In this document: positions 50,422 to 58,784 of the stretch, piece after piece
Numbering within the stretch: position 1 is the first letter of the stretch
How the letters are laid out: each line of letters starts with the position of its first letter
From: Planctomycetota bacterium
Lineage (GTDB): Bacteria; Planctomycetota; Phycisphaerae; Phycisphaerales; SM1A02
DNA length: 64,000 bases
Reading direction: 5' to 3'
NCBI GenBank assembly: GCA_022574595.1
Contig: JACZRS010000001.1
Span: 248,001 to 312,000, forward strand
The notes under the pieces: model-generated
Database searches by the model: none
The model's input: the letters and a program-made list of their open reading frames with translations, nothing else
What the model was told of the DNA's origin: nothing
Made by a program: the position numbers and the translations under genes

Positions 50422-50445
50422 ATGGCCGATATCGAACTATGGTGA
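50422..50445 (+). promoter_or_regulatory. Seven-codon leader overlapping the hicB start
   Basis: AAGGAG at 50407-50412 is positioned nine bases before an ATG at 50422 that opens the frame MADIELW and stops with TGA at 50443-50445. That stop overlaps the hicB start (ATGGTGA). hicB has no ribosome site of its own, so its translation may be coupled to this leader. Confidence 0.4.
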
Positions 50446-50675
50446 GCCAGAATCCCAAATCTTATACGGTAAGCGATGGAGATCTCGTGCTTAATTTGCA
50501 GGAAGCTGAGGAGGGGGGATATATCGTTACATCACCACTGGATCCGCAGCTTATCACTGAAGCCGAAACGATCGCCGAAGCTTTTGCCATGGCCCGCGAT
50601 GCTATGGAATCTTTGAACGATTCACGAATCAAGCTCTTCGAACAACTCAAAGCCTCCGAGGGTGGTGCGGCCTAA
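50439..50675 (+). CDS. hicB: HicB-family antitoxin
   Basis: The 78-residue product is an antitoxin-like protein of the HicB fold: LNLQEAEEGGYIVTSPLDPQ followed by LITEAETIAEAFAMARDAME match the RNase H-like core of HicB (usually E-E-G-G-Y-x-V-x-x-P-x-L-P-G-x-x-T-x-G-x-T-x-E-E-A). Here the P-x-L-P-G stretch is P-L-D-P-Q. No DNA-binding helix-turn-helix is attached, so autoregulation is not obvious. It would normally inhibit HicA directly by binding its active site. It overlaps hicA by 4 bases tail to tail, an unusual arrangement for this pair. Confidence 0.85.
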   Translation: MVSQNPKSYTVSDGDLVLNLQEAEEGGYIVTSPLDPQLITEAETIAEAFAMARDAMESLNDSRIKLFEQLKASEGGAA

Positions 50676-50860
50676 ATCGGCGACGGTACGCCAAGCTTTT
50701 CACAAATCGATTTTATAGTGCCACGTTTAATCTCAGTGTGGCGTGGGATTGAAGTTTGCTTTAGTGATCTGGTGTTAAGCCAGATATCGTGGCGACCGCC
50801 ATGGTGATGCAATTCGCATCCATGTTCGTGGAGATGTTTCTCTAGATCACGCCGTTTCAT
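50672..50860 (-). CDS. hicA: HicA-family mRNA interferase toxin
   Basis: A 62-residue toxin with a double-stranded-RNA-binding fold. MKRRDLEKHLHEHGCELHHH followed by GGRHDIW places the catalytic histidine at H24 (the G-x-x-H motif), and SIPRHTEIKRGTIKSICEKLG matches the C-terminal HicA motif P-R-H-x-E-I. HicA cleaves mRNA and tmRNA to stop translation until HicB neutralises it. It is on the opposite strand from hicB and converges on it with a 4-base overlap. The start ATG has no clear ribosome site; tandem 11-base repeats lie 43 bases upstream. Confidence 0.88.
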   Translation of the reverse strand: MKRRDLEKHLHEHGCELHHHGGRHDIWLNTRSLKQTSIPRHTEIKRGTIKSICEKLGVPSPI

Positions 50861-53383: not shown

Positions 53384-53776
53384 ACCATGGCTAAAATCGG
53401 ACCTATGGTTAAGTTAAGGTGCTTAGTCTAACGTGAGCAAAAGAACCCATAGCTCCGGCTATTTTGCTCGATGTCATATAATTAGTTGGATTGCGATATC
53501 TCATCACTGGCTGGGAGAGCTATGTGCAAGGCTTACGCAGACCGCATAATTGACAGAGTGAACGAAATTGGAATGGTTGGAAATGTCGCTCATGTTGCTA
53601 GCAGCAATCGGTAATTTGGATCATTGAGCCAGTGTGCAAAGTCGATTTGCTAGCATACCAGCATCGTTTTGTATTGGTGATGCTGATTGTGAATTGAATC
53701 ATTACGCGTTCTAAATCTAGTGATTTCACTCTAAAAAAGCGAATCGCATTTTCTGAAATATGTAGGAGTAAAGCAC
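53384..53776. other. Long gap before the bactofilin gene
   Basis: 393 bases. Contains a possible 30-codon frame at 53522-53614 with a GGGAG ribosome-like site, but otherwise no recognisable gene or strong hairpin. The stretch is AT-rich near 53620-53760 and probably includes the bactofilin promoter. Confidence 0.5.
53522..53614 (+). CDS. Possible 30-residue small protein
   Basis: ATG at 53522 preceded by GGGAGAGCT opens a frame with the residues MCKAYADRIIDRVNEIGMVG and ends at TAA 53612. Helical by composition. The evidence is only the ribosome site and length, so this is a tentative call. Confidence 0.25.
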   Translation: MCKAYADRIIDRVNEIGMVGNVAHVASSNR

Positions 53777-54238
53777 ATGCCATCAGCACGATCAAAAAAA
53801 ACCAGGCGATCTTCAGCCAAGAAACGCCCATCACGCCGTCGCGCAACCGCCAAGCGCAGTTCAACCAAGCGTAAGAGCGTCAAGCGCGCAACTGCAAAGC
53901 GATCAGCTTCTAAGCGCAAGAGTTCCGCCCGAAAGAGAACAAGCGCTTCAAAGAGCAGCAGCAACTCAAAAATCGCACACATTAGCGGTTCATTCGATGG
54001 CAACATTACTTGCCCCGGCCAGCTTCACTTTATGCCAGGCGTAAAATGCAGCGGCAACTTCCAGGCTGGTAACTTCCAGGTTGATGGCTCAATTAAGGGC
54101 AGCATCTTGGCGCGCAACCAGGTAAAGCTTGGCAAGAAAGCGATGATCAAAGGTAACATCAGTGCGTTCAAGTTTGTCGCTGAAGAAGGCGCATGCTTCA
54201 ACGGCCGAATGAATCTCGGTCGCCGCAAAGCCGCCTAA
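53777..54238 (+). CDS. Bactofilin-type protein with histone-like basic tail
   Basis: A 153-residue protein. Residues 1-63 are almost entirely K, R, S, A and T in short repeats (SKKTRRSSAKKRPSRRRATA and KRSSTKRKSVKRATAKRSAS), like the tail of histone H1 or bacterial Hc1 proteins. Residues 64-150 form a bactofilin fold of repeated strand units: IAHISGSFDGNITCPGQLHF, SGNFQAGNFQVDGSIKGSIL and GKKAMIKGNISAFKFVAEEG. Bactofilins polymerise into filaments that organise the cell. Here the basic tail suggests contact with nucleic acid or polyanions, so this may link the cytoskeleton to the nucleoid. A strong terminator follows. Confidence 0.8.
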   Translation: MPSARSKKTRRSSAKKRPSRRRATAKRSSTKRKSVKRATAKRSASKRKSSARKRTSASKSSSNSKIAHISGSFDGNITCPGQLHFMPGVKCSGNFQAGNFQVDGSIKGSILARNQVKLGKKAMIKGNISAFKFVAEEGACFNGRMNLGRRKAA

Positions 54239-54262: not shown

Positions 54263-54298
54263 TAAAGCCGCAGTGGCACATACCACTGTGGCTTTTTT
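54263..54298 (+). terminator. Rho-independent terminator after the bactofilin gene
   Basis: AGCCGCAGTGG (54266-54276) pairs with CCACTGTGGCT (54283-54293) around a CACATA loop, followed by T6. Clear stem and T tract; 25 bases after the stop codon. Confidence 0.9.
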
Positions 54299-54306
54299 GC
54301 TTTTGC

Positions 54307-54942
54307 TTATAGCCACTCTGCCAAGCTCTTGCGCAAATGACCAAAGCCGAATTGGAATCGTTGTTCGAGTGCATCTAGATCTTCAGCAATGCGATTAGCA
54401 TTTTCTAATGTGCGAAGCATTCTGATATTAGCACTTGCTTGTAGGCTTCCATACTTCTTGATCTTGAGATCTCGCCTCGCTTGGCCGGAGAGCCTTCCTT
54501 TTGATTGCTCTTCGCGAAACCACGCTTCTGTACAGTTTCGCTCGATACCGGAGAGTAGCCAAGCTTCGATAGCGGGCGTTGCCATTCCGATCGCAACTTT
54601 AAGTGGAGCTCGACCTGCTCTAGCTGGTAAAGTGCCAAGGATGTTTTCGACCAATTTCTTAATTTGACAGAGACGACAGTCTGGATTTCCATCTGATTGG
54701 TCTTCGTGTGCTGAGTTGTGAGGTAGTGTGCTATCTGAATCAGCTACGAATACAAAACCATCGGCATCGGTACGGTGTAAATCACGGATGATCGGAATGA
54801 CTTGATTCTTTGCTGCGATCCAGCCCCCGCCTCGCTTGCGGTAGGATTTTATGATCTCTACTGGTTTATCGAGTATGCCTTCAACAAGAATCTTGTAAGC
54901 AGTTTCGTCAACTTTCGATTCGCTTAGAATCCCAATCCTCAT
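54307..54942 (-). CDS. TOPRIM-like (DUF4276/RloB-like) protein of a two-gene unit
   Basis: A 211-residue protein from the ATG at 54942, overlapping the ATPase stop as ATGA. A TOPRIM-like core is suggested by MRIGILSESKVDETAYK with glutamate E8, then GFVFVADSDS with the D68-x-D70 pair, both at the ends of hydrophobic strands as in TOPRIM metal sites. Later PAIEAWLLSG (123-132) matches the x-x-x-E-A-W-L-L motif of DUF4276 and RloB-like TOPRIM proteins. Between them H75, H79, C89 and C92 (PHNSAHE...CRLC) could bind zinc. Such proteins are effectors next to AAA or SMC-type ATPases. No exact family was identified. I infer a nuclease-type effector, with moderate certainty. Confidence 0.7.
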   Translation of the reverse strand: MRIGILSESKVDETAYKILVEGILDKPVEIIKSYRKRGGGWIAAKNQVIPIIRDLHRTDADGFVFVADSDSTLPHNSAHEDQSDGNPDCRLCQIKKLVENILGTLPARAGRAPLKVAIGMATPAIEAWLLSGIERNCTEAWFREEQSKGRLSGQARRDLKIKKYGSLQASANIRMLRTLENANRIAEDLDALEQRFQFGFGHLRKSLAEWL

Positions 54943-55958
54943 TTTTCTGTTGGCACTCCCCCAAGAACCCCAGAGTACCATAGATCGCCCAAAGACGACT
55001 CGCCATCTAGCAATCCATCAAGATCATCGCGATCAACAAGCCTAGTAAATGTCGCTTCATTGCCTTTCTTTTCTGCAATAACAATCTGCTCGGGATTGTC
55101 TCTGAAGAGATCAAGGAAATATGGCGAGTGAGTTGTCACAACAACTTGCACCGGCTCACGATCTTCACCAGATTCTTCAGGGAAGGCAAGGCGATAGAGA
55201 GCATCCTTAACATCGTGCATGAGTCTCGGATGAAGTCCGCGGTCAGGTTCTTCTAGAAGAACTAGCGTCGGCGGTTCTGGCAAGTAAGCGAGTGTCAGTA
55301 GAGCTAGAGCAATTAGAGTTCCTTGGGATAGATCCCCCGCACTAATCTTATGACCGCCTTTTCTTGTGCGGAGGGATATGCTTCGATCTCCTTCGGTTGG
55401 GACATCAAAAAGAATACTATCAAATTCAGGCAACCAATTCTTGATAGCTTCATTTACGCTCTTGAATCGTTCTGGATTATCATCTCTTAAGCGATCCAGC
55501 ACTACTGCAAGTTTCGTTCCGGATTCAGCCATTTCAACTTTAGCTTGCAGTTTCGATTGCATCGCTATCTGCACTGCATCGAATGAGTAAAAGCGAATCT
55601 CTTGTAGCCAAAAATTTAGTGATTCGTTATGTCCTGGATTTATTCCACCAGTTCCACGAGAGTGTTCGAGTCTCCTACGCCGATTGATACTTGACGTAAT
55701 ATTGTCGAGCCATTCTTCGTTCGGCTCGCTACTCCATTTCAACACCATTGAGGCTTCCCATTCATGCGGATTGCCTTCAAGACCTACAGAAAATCCTCCA
55801 GACCAAGGCCACTTACCCCGACGAAAAGCTGCGAGCGAGCGCATTGCTGTCGTCTTCCCACTCCCATTCGGACCAATTAATAGCGTAAACCTGCCAAGTG
55901 GCAGAACGGTATTCTTTAGAACCTTTACATTCTTAAACTTGATCGATTTAATGAACAT
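54939..55958 (-). CDS. AAA (SMC/ABC-like) ATPase of a two-gene unit
   Basis: A 339-residue ATPase. LLIGPNGSGKTTAMRSLAAF holds the Walker A motif (29-37). The ABC-like signature is SAGDLSQGTLIALALL (207-221), the Walker B is TLVLLEEPDRGLHPRLMHDV (231-250) with catalytic E237, and VVTTHSPYFLDLF is the H-loop. This set defines the AAA_15/AAA_21 class, related to the ATPases of OLD nucleases, Gabija, Septu and retron-associated systems. It contains no long coiled-coil and no fused TOPRIM, which instead follows as a separate gene. It likely senses a trigger and gates the effector encoded downstream; the two starts and stops overlap. Confidence 0.85.
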   Translation of the reverse strand: MFIKSIKFKNVKVLKNTVLPLGRFTLLIGPNGSGKTTAMRSLAAFRRGKWPWSGGFSVGLEGNPHEWEASMVLKWSSEPNEEWLDNITSSINRRRRLEHSRGTGGINPGHNESLNFWLQEIRFYSFDAVQIAMQSKLQAKVEMAESGTKLAVVLDRLRDDNPERFKSVNEAIKNWLPEFDSILFDVPTEGDRSISLRTRKGGHKISAGDLSQGTLIALALLTLAYLPEPPTLVLLEEPDRGLHPRLMHDVKDALYRLAFPEESGEDREPVQVVVTTHSPYFLDLFRDNPEQIVIAEKKGNEATFTRLVDRDDLDGLLDGESSLGDLWYSGVLGGVPTEK

Positions 55959-56741: not shown

Positions 56742-58784
56742 CTACTGATAGGCGCCGTGGGTTATAGGGGTGGGGTTTGTGCCATCAGAGTTCATAATGT
56801 AGATCTGCCAGGAGCCATCTCGCTTGGAGGCGAATGCTATCTTTGACGCGTCTGGTGACCATGTGATGGAGGTGTCGTGAGCGGGGTGGGATGTTAGTCT
56901 TTGTTCACCGGTACCATCGGGACGTATCAGGTAGATGTCGTTTGCTCCGTCTCGTCGCGAACAGAATGCGATCTTCGCGCCATCTGGGGACCAGATCGGG
57001 GCGGACTCGGCACGCGTTTTCGTGAGCTGAATTCTGTTTGATCCATCGGAGTTCATGATATGGATTGCGGGCGAATCAAACTTGTCATCGATCGACGCGA
57101 CAAATGCAATTCGTTGGCCATCGGGTGATGATCTGGGAGTGTAATCTCGAATAGTATTGCGGGAAAGTCTCTTTGGATCTGTACCATCAGCGTTCATGAC
57201 ATAGATCTCATGGTCTCCATCGCAGTCAGTGTTGTAGTAGATTTGTGAGCCATCATACGAGAAGCTAGGGTCTTCATGGTTGCAAAGTTCGTTTGTGAGA
57301 GCCTTTGTTTGAGTACCGTCAGCGTTCATCACATGGATTTGGAATTGGCCCTTGCTTCCGGAGAAGAAGACGATTTTCGATCCGTCGGGAGACCATCTGG
57401 GGAGGTAATCACGCTCCGGGGTGTGAGTGAGACGTGTCTGATTTGTGCCGTCCGTATTCATGATGTAGATTTCGTAGTTGCCATCACGGTTGGAGTAGAA
57501 AGCAATCTTCTTTCCATCTGGCGACCAGGACGGAGCTGTGTTGTTGGCCGGTTTGTCTGGCAAAGCGGAAATAACGAAAACTCTTCCTGATTTTGGGCCC
57601 TTTATCGAACTCCACCCTGAGGCTATGAGAAAATCCAGCGTGCCATCGCTGTTGACATCACCCATTGCTGATGTGTCAAACCCGAATGTTTCATCTTTGA
57701 TATTGCATGTATAGGTTTGCATTAGTGAGCCGTCTTTGCCGGAATATAAGTAGCACTTGCCACCACTTTTCGCCCCTGAAGCATGCTGCCAAGCTCCGAT
57801 GATCAGGTCAGCGTGTCCATCGTTGTTCACATCTCCCGCAAGCGCAGTGCCTATCCCAAAGCCATCACCTTTTGCTTCTCCTGTAAAGGTATGTAACAGT
57901 TTACCGTCAATACCTGAATTGATATAGACGCGTCCGGTTTGTTCACCTTTTGCTGCGTTTTCCCAATCGGAAGAATATATATCTGGCGTGCCATCTGCAT
58001 TCACATCGCCGACAACTGATACAAACATTCGGCCGAGGTTCACACCAGTCTCGTCCGCTTCTACTGTAAATCGCTTCTTACCAGTTCGGCCATCAAAGAC
58101 ATAGACTCGCCCCTTATCACCTTCGCCTGCGTTCATTGCACCGATGACAATGAAGCTATTGTTTTCATCACTATAGCCATGGATTGTTGAGCTGAAGTTA
58201 TCACCTGCTTCTTCGCCATCGAACGTGCGTAATACTTCTCCATCTTTTCCGTTTATTAAGTAGGCTCGTCCAGTATCTTTACCTTTACAAGTGTTACCAG
58301 GCGCACCTATTATGATGTCATCATGCCCATCTTGATTAACATCACCTGCGGGCGAGACAGTTCTGCCGAACCTTTCACCTTGTTCTTTTGCTTTTAAGTG
58401 CAGAAGTATTGATCCATCTTTGCCAGAATAGACATTTGCGTATCCTGCTCTTGGAGCGCCTGCAATAACATCGCCGACTCCATCGCCGTTCACATCACCT
58501 GCGGGATCAATATTTATTCCTAGATAACTGTTTGGTTTAGCTGACTGTTTCCAAAGCAGCTTTGCTGTTTTCCCCGAGTAGGCATAGATGCTTCCAGCGT
58601 TTGGTCCTTCTATATTTTTAAATGGAGCGCTAACAACGAAGTCATTAATGCCATCCCCATCAACATCAGAAATGTTTCGAGCGATCCAGCCGAACTGATC
58701 ACCTGCTGCTTCTGCGTGAACTTCGTGGATGATTTTTATGTTTTCGACAAATTGTCCGTGGGCAAGGTTGGCTGATGTACACAA
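56742..58784 (-). CDS. FG-GAP / TolB hybrid beta-propeller protein
   Basis: About 680 residues in two propellers. The N-terminal half has about seven FG-GAP units with D-x-N-G-D-G calcium loops ([51 protein letters not shown]), an integrin-alpha-like fold. The C-terminal half has about six TolB/PD40 units ([20 protein letters not shown] and [20 protein letters not shown]). It is probably exported and binds ligands. The start is doubtful: in-frame signal-like residues [18 protein letters not shown] lie just upstream of TTG 58784, but a TAA at 58806-58808 separates them from any ATG. Possibly the start was damaged, or translation begins at TTG or a rare codon. Confidence 0.75.

Follow-up and report, generated by a model that had tools for sequence, protein, structure and literature searches.

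Organization of the locus

The analyzed window is a 64,000-nucleotide stretch of a planctomycete contig. It contains a gene for a bactofilin with a polycationic N-terminal tail, whose features are as follows (window coordinates).

53764..53768, plus strand: Shine-Dalgarno-like AGGAG, 8 nt before the ATG, by direct reading
53777..54238, plus strand: tailed bactofilin gene, 153 aa, from the ORF translation, the Pfam match and tail-bearing relatives
53777..53968, plus strand: polycationic N-terminal tail, residues 1–64, from composition, pLDDT, 11 proteins and codon analysis
53966..54211, plus strand: bactofilin beta-helix, residues 64–145, from Pfam, the structure model and comparison with untailed relatives
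54197..54199, plus strand: codon of F141, aligned with F105 of the Thermus bactofilin and F130 of Caulobacter BacA
54221..54235, plus strand: basic C-terminal end RRKAA, residues 149–153, with the [K/R]AA common to the tailed subfamily
54264..54295, plus strand: terminator-like hairpin followed by a T-run, from a consensus scan only

The gene starts with the ATG at 53777 and stops at 54236–54238. Codon-by-codon reading found no alternative ATG, GTG or TTG in the tail or upstream in the open frame. A bactofilin with a histone H1-like N-terminal tail had been proposed at 53777–54238 by a sequence-only reading; its coordinates and frame were correct, and the frame, the Pfam match and the tail composition confirmed the description. 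The promoter scan found no promoter at the gene, and no tandem DNA repeat was found there at a score of at least 30. The terminator scan returned 2 sites as compared with a shuffle mean of 1.6, a count not above chance.

Bactofilin domain and putative polymerization interface

Residues 64–145 matched the Pfam Bactofilin family (PF04519; E = 7e-17), scoring 61.9 bits where the curated cut-off is 27.9. The bactofilin fold was predicted by AlphaFold2 with block-mean pLDDT values of 91–94 for residues 71–140. The model is a compact right-handed triangular beta-helix, which superimposed on bactofilin structures with an rmsd of 1.6 Å over 83–87 residues. VIA-align of the model gave Z 15.0 for 6rib (rmsd 1.6 Å, 87 residues), 14.0 for 6ria and 13.8 for 2n3d, and the next fold below the bactofilins scored Z 9.7. 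Foldseek alone yielded weak E-values, the best being 0.088 (to 2n3d). A profile of eight tailed proteins matched the Thermus (4.4e-11) and Caulobacter (1.6e-6) bactofilins among the PDB relatives.

The Phe equivalent to F141 was invariant in 11 of 11 tailed bactofilins. For Caulobacter BacA, the available text of PMC12448750 reports that the F130R variant formed no polymers in vitro. Polymerization is probably kept in the tailed proteins, because this interface Phe is invariant in all 11. The TVIGxDxxxKGE-like first rung of untailed planctomycete bactofilins was absent from the tailed proteins, so that the polymer interface at this end may have changed. The domain of the tailed proteins was basic, having a pI of 9.1–10.2 in ten of them, as compared with 6.1–9.4 for the six ordinary whole proteins checked.

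Composition of the tail and selection acting on it

Residues 1–64 of the window protein comprise 13 Lys and 14 Arg (27 K/R), 23 Ser and Thr, 9 Ala and no Asp or Glu; only 1 of the 64 residues is hydrophobic. The net charge of the tail is +27 in 60 aa; among the 78 remaining window ORFs that are 100 aa or longer, the highest value was +12. The block-mean pLDDT was 50–58 over residues 1–60, and the tail is therefore predicted to be disordered. A Lys-rich, acid-free disordered tail is the mark of H1-like proteins of the Hc1 and AlgP type, and the window protein carries one by composition and prediction. The tails of Hc1, Hc2 and histone H1 are likewise disordered, Lys-rich and acid-poor.

Family models gave no significant match to the tail (NCBIfam hist_H1_lk_Burk, E = 0.75; Rv3852 model, E = 0.13), and no H1 or Hc1 model appeared among the 8 Pfam hits of the window protein up to E 10. 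KPAA tandem repeats, known from PhaF and AlgP tails, were not found in the window protein; a single KPAA occurs in one tailed relative (L048). In a search that accepted hits up to E 10, and whose handling of low-complexity segments may hide some, the tail sequence retrieved no other protein with such a tail from the same genome.

Across the 11 tailed bactofilins, the tail measured 50–120 aa and contained no acidic residue: Asp and Glu were absent from the ten proteins analyzed together and from L100, whose 91-aa tail has 38 K/R. Hydrophobic residues numbered 0–7 per tail in the tailed proteins analyzed. Residue order and length varied between genera, the tails being of low complexity and rich in indels.

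We compared the tail codons of the window gene with those of its orthologue in G036, a genome of the nearest genus (g37). Position 3 differed in 43 of 61 codons, position 1 in 21 and position 2 in 15. The tail yielded pS = 0.86 and pN = 0.28, and the bactofilin domain pS = 0.56 and pN = 0.12. Columns with Lys or Arg were kept as such in 21 of 25 cases (G036 and G105) and in 22 of 27 (G104). In this genus comparison the synonymous sites of the tail were near saturation and K/R was mostly retained. The excess of changes at position 3, pS exceeding pN and the retention of K/R indicate that the tail is coding and selected. Judged from these alignments, the letters of the tail change faster than those of the domain and its charge is held.

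A subfamily of tailed bactofilins

The 176 loci collected contained 153 distinct bactofilin-like domains, of which 103 were tailed or scored at least 45 bits against the domain model, the rest being weaker paralogues. The net charge of the 45 residues preceding the domain was bimodal: +16 to +20 in 10 domains, which represent 11 proteins since L005 and L034 share one domain, and +9 or less in 143. The C-terminal [K/R]AA was found in all ten high-charge domains and in none of the 143 others. On these sequence features, tailed bactofilins are a subfamily and not an accident. In a domain tree (48 rows, 80 columns, L100 left out), the tail label needed 2 changes, whereas shuffled labels needed 9.2. 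A single change sufficed in 0 of 200 bootstrap trees, and the well-supported branches forced at most 1, support being low overall. The tail label is thus clustered on the tree, which at this support is compatible with one origin or with more.

Tailed and untailed bactofilins coexisted in the six carriers read (G000, G036, G111, G104, G219 and G259), and the tailed copy is therefore an added paralogue. The fusion sets the protein apart from the ordinary bactofilins that these genomes also encode, in accordance with the initial impression that it fits no usual bactofilin. A second divergent bactofilin, carrying an N-terminal CxxC...CxxC segment, is the neighbor of the ordinary bactofilin at many planctomycete loci that we read (L001 and L003 on contig C28 of the window's own genome; L032, L042, L014, L020 and L063). 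From its motif, we read this module as zinc-ribbon-like.

Distribution

The sequence-only reading had proposed a search for the same fusion in other planctomycetes, and had named absence of the tail from close relatives as grounds for abandoning its claim. The g37 orthologues and all 11 members were tailed, and they came from 11 genomes of 8 genera and two families within one order of Planctomycetota. By sequence, the fusion, its conservation and the family of its domain are established. In the family of the window, 8 of 181 genomes, the window's included, carried a tailed bactofilin: G000; G036, G104 and G105 of genus g37; G100 and G102 of g57; G111 of g59; and G128 of g30. A sample of 400 genomes from the order added G259 and G219 from another family, and reading the lower hits added G385 as a third. 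When the order search was repeated with a profile of all 11 proteins, 10 of 400 genomes scored at least 156 bits and the next match, at 106 bits, was untailed; this gap arises partly by construction, as the profile contains those members. The matches in this sample did not include G105. Of 255 genomes sampled across the phylum, that of the window gave a score of 210 bits with its own copy, and the runner-up, at 94 bits, was untailed. No tail was seen outside the order among the phylum loci read, in a search whose profile favors known members and which scored at most 9–14 candidates per genome. The tailed L100 was first ranked at 89 bits among untailed hits, and many matched rows of the order and phylum searches went unread, so more divergent members may be missed.

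The gene was patchy within genera. In g30, G128 carried the tailed protein, and G029 and G129 gave only untailed matches (L012 and L040). In g57, the matches reached 1e-64 in G100 and G102, as compared with 1e-18 to 1e-20 (unread) in G101 and G103. Several genomes are incomplete, which makes gene loss indistinguishable from missing data in these counts. Being patchy, the tailed protein is no general component of the planctomycete nucleoid.

Among plasmids, no relative was matched. The window protein alone as query matched nothing in a collection of genome contigs; with an alignment as query, the same collection returned 11 loci, 7 with a tailed copy and 4 with a distant bactofilin from another phylum. 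None of these 4 had an upstream charge over +9.

Gene neighborhood and other DNA-packing proteins

The G104 locus (L086) keeps 13 sense ORFs in window order; 18 ORFs matched, 5 of them antisense frames. The loci of G036 and G105 are shorter and have fewer ORFs in window order. The neighborhood conserved in G104 includes a thiolase upstream of the bactofilin and, downstream, an AAA-ATPase pair among other genes. The comparison also covered four carriers of other genera (but not G219, G259 and G385), and there the bactofilin was the sole match to any window ORF. No candidate operon partner emerged, as these four carriers share no neighbor with the window ORFs outside g37. The neighbors give no functional clue, because no other window ORF matched outside g37. 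We found no gene-neighbor link to chromosome proteins, and no polyphosphate or RNA family among the ten window neighbors scanned.

The same genome has two HU genes without a comparable K/R tail. It also has an Hc1-domain ORF (L170 1495–1749 on contig C10; 84 aa, PF07432, 3.4e-21) without a K/R-rich tail, and a single match to ParB that exceeds the cut-off for the family.

Several other genes of the window deserve mention. An AAA ATPase (54307–55958, minus strand; PF13304/PF13175, best PADLOC hits HEC-01A and AriA) overlaps a 224-aa partner without a Pfam match. This pair adjoins the tailed bactofilin in G036 and G104 and had no match at the same place in G105 (L088); it is possibly a movable defense-like cassette. 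At 50439–50860, a HicA toxin (PF07927, minus strand) lies directly against a 78-aa plus-strand ORF, which has no Pfam match and is 87% identical in the three g37 genomes. A protein at 56742–58784 (minus strand) combines FG-GAP repeats with PD40/TolB-like propeller repeats. No G104 (L086) ORF matched it, although the neighbors on both sides did.

Interpretation of the tail

Our tentative explanation, for which the odds seem to us somewhat short of even, is that the gene encodes a polymer-forming bactofilin paralogue that binds a polyanion through its polycationic tail, nucleoid DNA being the likeliest one; we infer its polymerization, its binding, the choice of DNA and its cellular role. The protein would be a second, specialized bactofilin beside the untailed one of the same cell. 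Its C-terminal beta-helix most likely still polymerizes through the conserved Phe interface, and its N-terminal segment would resemble the histone H1, AlgP and PhaF tails in being polycationic and disordered. With such a tail on every subunit along the polymer, the grip on a polyanion would be highly multivalent. The most likely partner is chromosomal DNA, in which case a nucleoid-bound bactofilin scaffold could tether, organize or bundle it. The sequence-only reading had suggested a filament that binds DNA or another polyanion. A polyanion-binding filament fits the fusion, because the polymerization Phe is conserved; DNA as the ligand and polymerization itself are the inferred parts of that suggestion. 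Points that weigh against the explanation are the patchy distribution, the missing first rung, the lack of a neighbor link to chromosome proteins and the presence in the same genome of DNA-packing proteins of other kinds (HU and the Hc1-domain ORF). Condensation need not be the outcome, because loss of bactofilins in Myxococcus gives more compact nucleoids, according to the available text of PMC5703909.

A bolder version is possible, if doubtful. A cytoskeletal polymer would here have turned chromatin-bound, as a nucleotide-independent filament with an H1-like tail per subunit, and would form a linear scaffold coating, bundling or anchoring the nucleoid beside an ordinary bactofilin.

The tail may instead bind polyphosphate or RNA and ribosomes, the bactofilin scaffolding granules or condensates and not the chromosome. 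We consider this rather unlikely, though a serious rival. The low complexity of the tail and its variable length and order are what non-specific contact with any polyanion would produce. Bacterial H1-like tails, those of AlgP and PhaF, have been linked to polyphosphate and to storage granules. The lysine-rich, H1-like AlgP resides at polyphosphate granules, whose positioning requires its repeat domain; as its tail is reported to bind DNA too, the two activities are not exclusive (PMC9239181, as far as its available text goes). The scan of the ten window neighbors likewise speaks against a polyphosphate or RNA role.

A further reading is that the tail is a long, purely electrostatic anchor on anionic phospholipids, which would make it this lineage's version of the bactofilin membrane-targeting sequence (MTS). 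According to the available text of PMC12448750, bactofilins are typically located at the membrane, and an N-terminal MTS was assigned to the majority of the homologues surveyed, being usual and not defining. In the MTS of BacA, M1, F2, K4 and K7 are key, K4 and K7 contact anionic PG lipids, and polymerization boosts membrane binding (same source). The contacts of these lysines, the boost from polymerization and the membrane siting would suit such an anchor. The BacA MTS, however, relies on the hydrophobic M1 and F2, and the tailed proteins lack a hydrophobic/cationic MTS: residue 2 was Pro or Ala in 11 of 11, a count that uses chosen starts (L049 has an alternative upstream ATG), and no hydrophobic stretch was seen. 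At 50–120 aa, the tail is also far longer than the eight-residue BacA peptide. The missing MTS is weaker evidence than it appears, because the untailed relatives are also without one; none of the 59 listed has an M-F start. For the same reason, there need not have been a membrane anchor for the tail to replace, and in an order whose untailed relatives show no MTS the tail could supply one. MTS-like starts were present in three bactofilins from elsewhere in the phylum (L105, L106 and L111). Taken together, we judge a membrane anchor unlikely.

Distinctly improbable, in our view, is a tail without a nucleic-acid ligand, whose main role would be to bind one particular acidic protein or else to keep the filaments separate or soluble. 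There is a precedent in Myxococcus BacP, whose disordered C-terminal extension binds its partner PadC (available text of PMC5703909), and docking could be the role of the C-terminal [K/R]AA that the tailed proteins have in common. In the tail itself, charge is conserved and order and length are poorly so, unlike a specific docking motif, and no neighbor was shared outside g37 among the ORFs compared with the window. A functionless tail, either drifting low-complexity sequence or never translated, is barely credible despite its low complexity and indel-rich divergence between genera: we rejected chance or artefact on the codon analysis (saturated synonymous sites with K/R kept), the ribosome-binding site before the sole possible start, the lack of a tandem DNA repeat and the conservation of the tail in every one of the 11 members found, which span 8 genera.

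Comparison with known systems

Our search of the open-access PMC literature (one library; titles and abstract starts) found no description of a histone-tailed bactofilin. A survey of bactofilin N-termini covered 14,337 homologues and examined five phyla closely, and planctomycetes are unmentioned in its main text as available (PMC12448750). As far as that library shows, the coupling proposed here is undescribed: a conserved subfamily bearing an H1-like polycation would link a cytoskeletal polymer of bacteria directly to DNA or to some other polyanion. The tailed protein is compact (153 aa), which makes the idea readily testable.

The tailed protein shares with Caulobacter BacA and the Thermus bactofilin the PF04519 family, the predicted beta-helix and the polymerization Phe. 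It differs from ordinary bactofilins in lacking the hydrophobic MTS and the planctomycete first rung, and in possessing an acid-free polycationic tail of 50–120 aa, a basic domain and the [K/R]AA end. The zinc-ribbon-like planctomycete paralogues (e.g., L003), encoded in the same genomes, likewise have a new N-terminal module on their bactofilin domain, but theirs is a CxxC...CxxC segment and not a polycation.

AlgP and PhaF of Pseudomonas resemble the tailed bactofilin in that a structured domain bears a disordered tail rich in Lys and poor in acidic residues. The structured domain is a different one, however, and the bactofilin tail is a K/R/S/T/A mix with few prolines, no KPAA array and no significant profile match. 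A precedent is BacNOP of Myxococcus xanthus, bactofilins that affect nucleoid size and ParABS placement (PMC5703909, available text). There, too, bactofilins act on chromosome arrangement and a disordered extension has a binding role. The BacNOP connection depends on PadC and on the C-terminal extension of BacP (same text), whereas in the tailed bactofilin the extension is N-terminal and is a candidate for direct polyanion binding.
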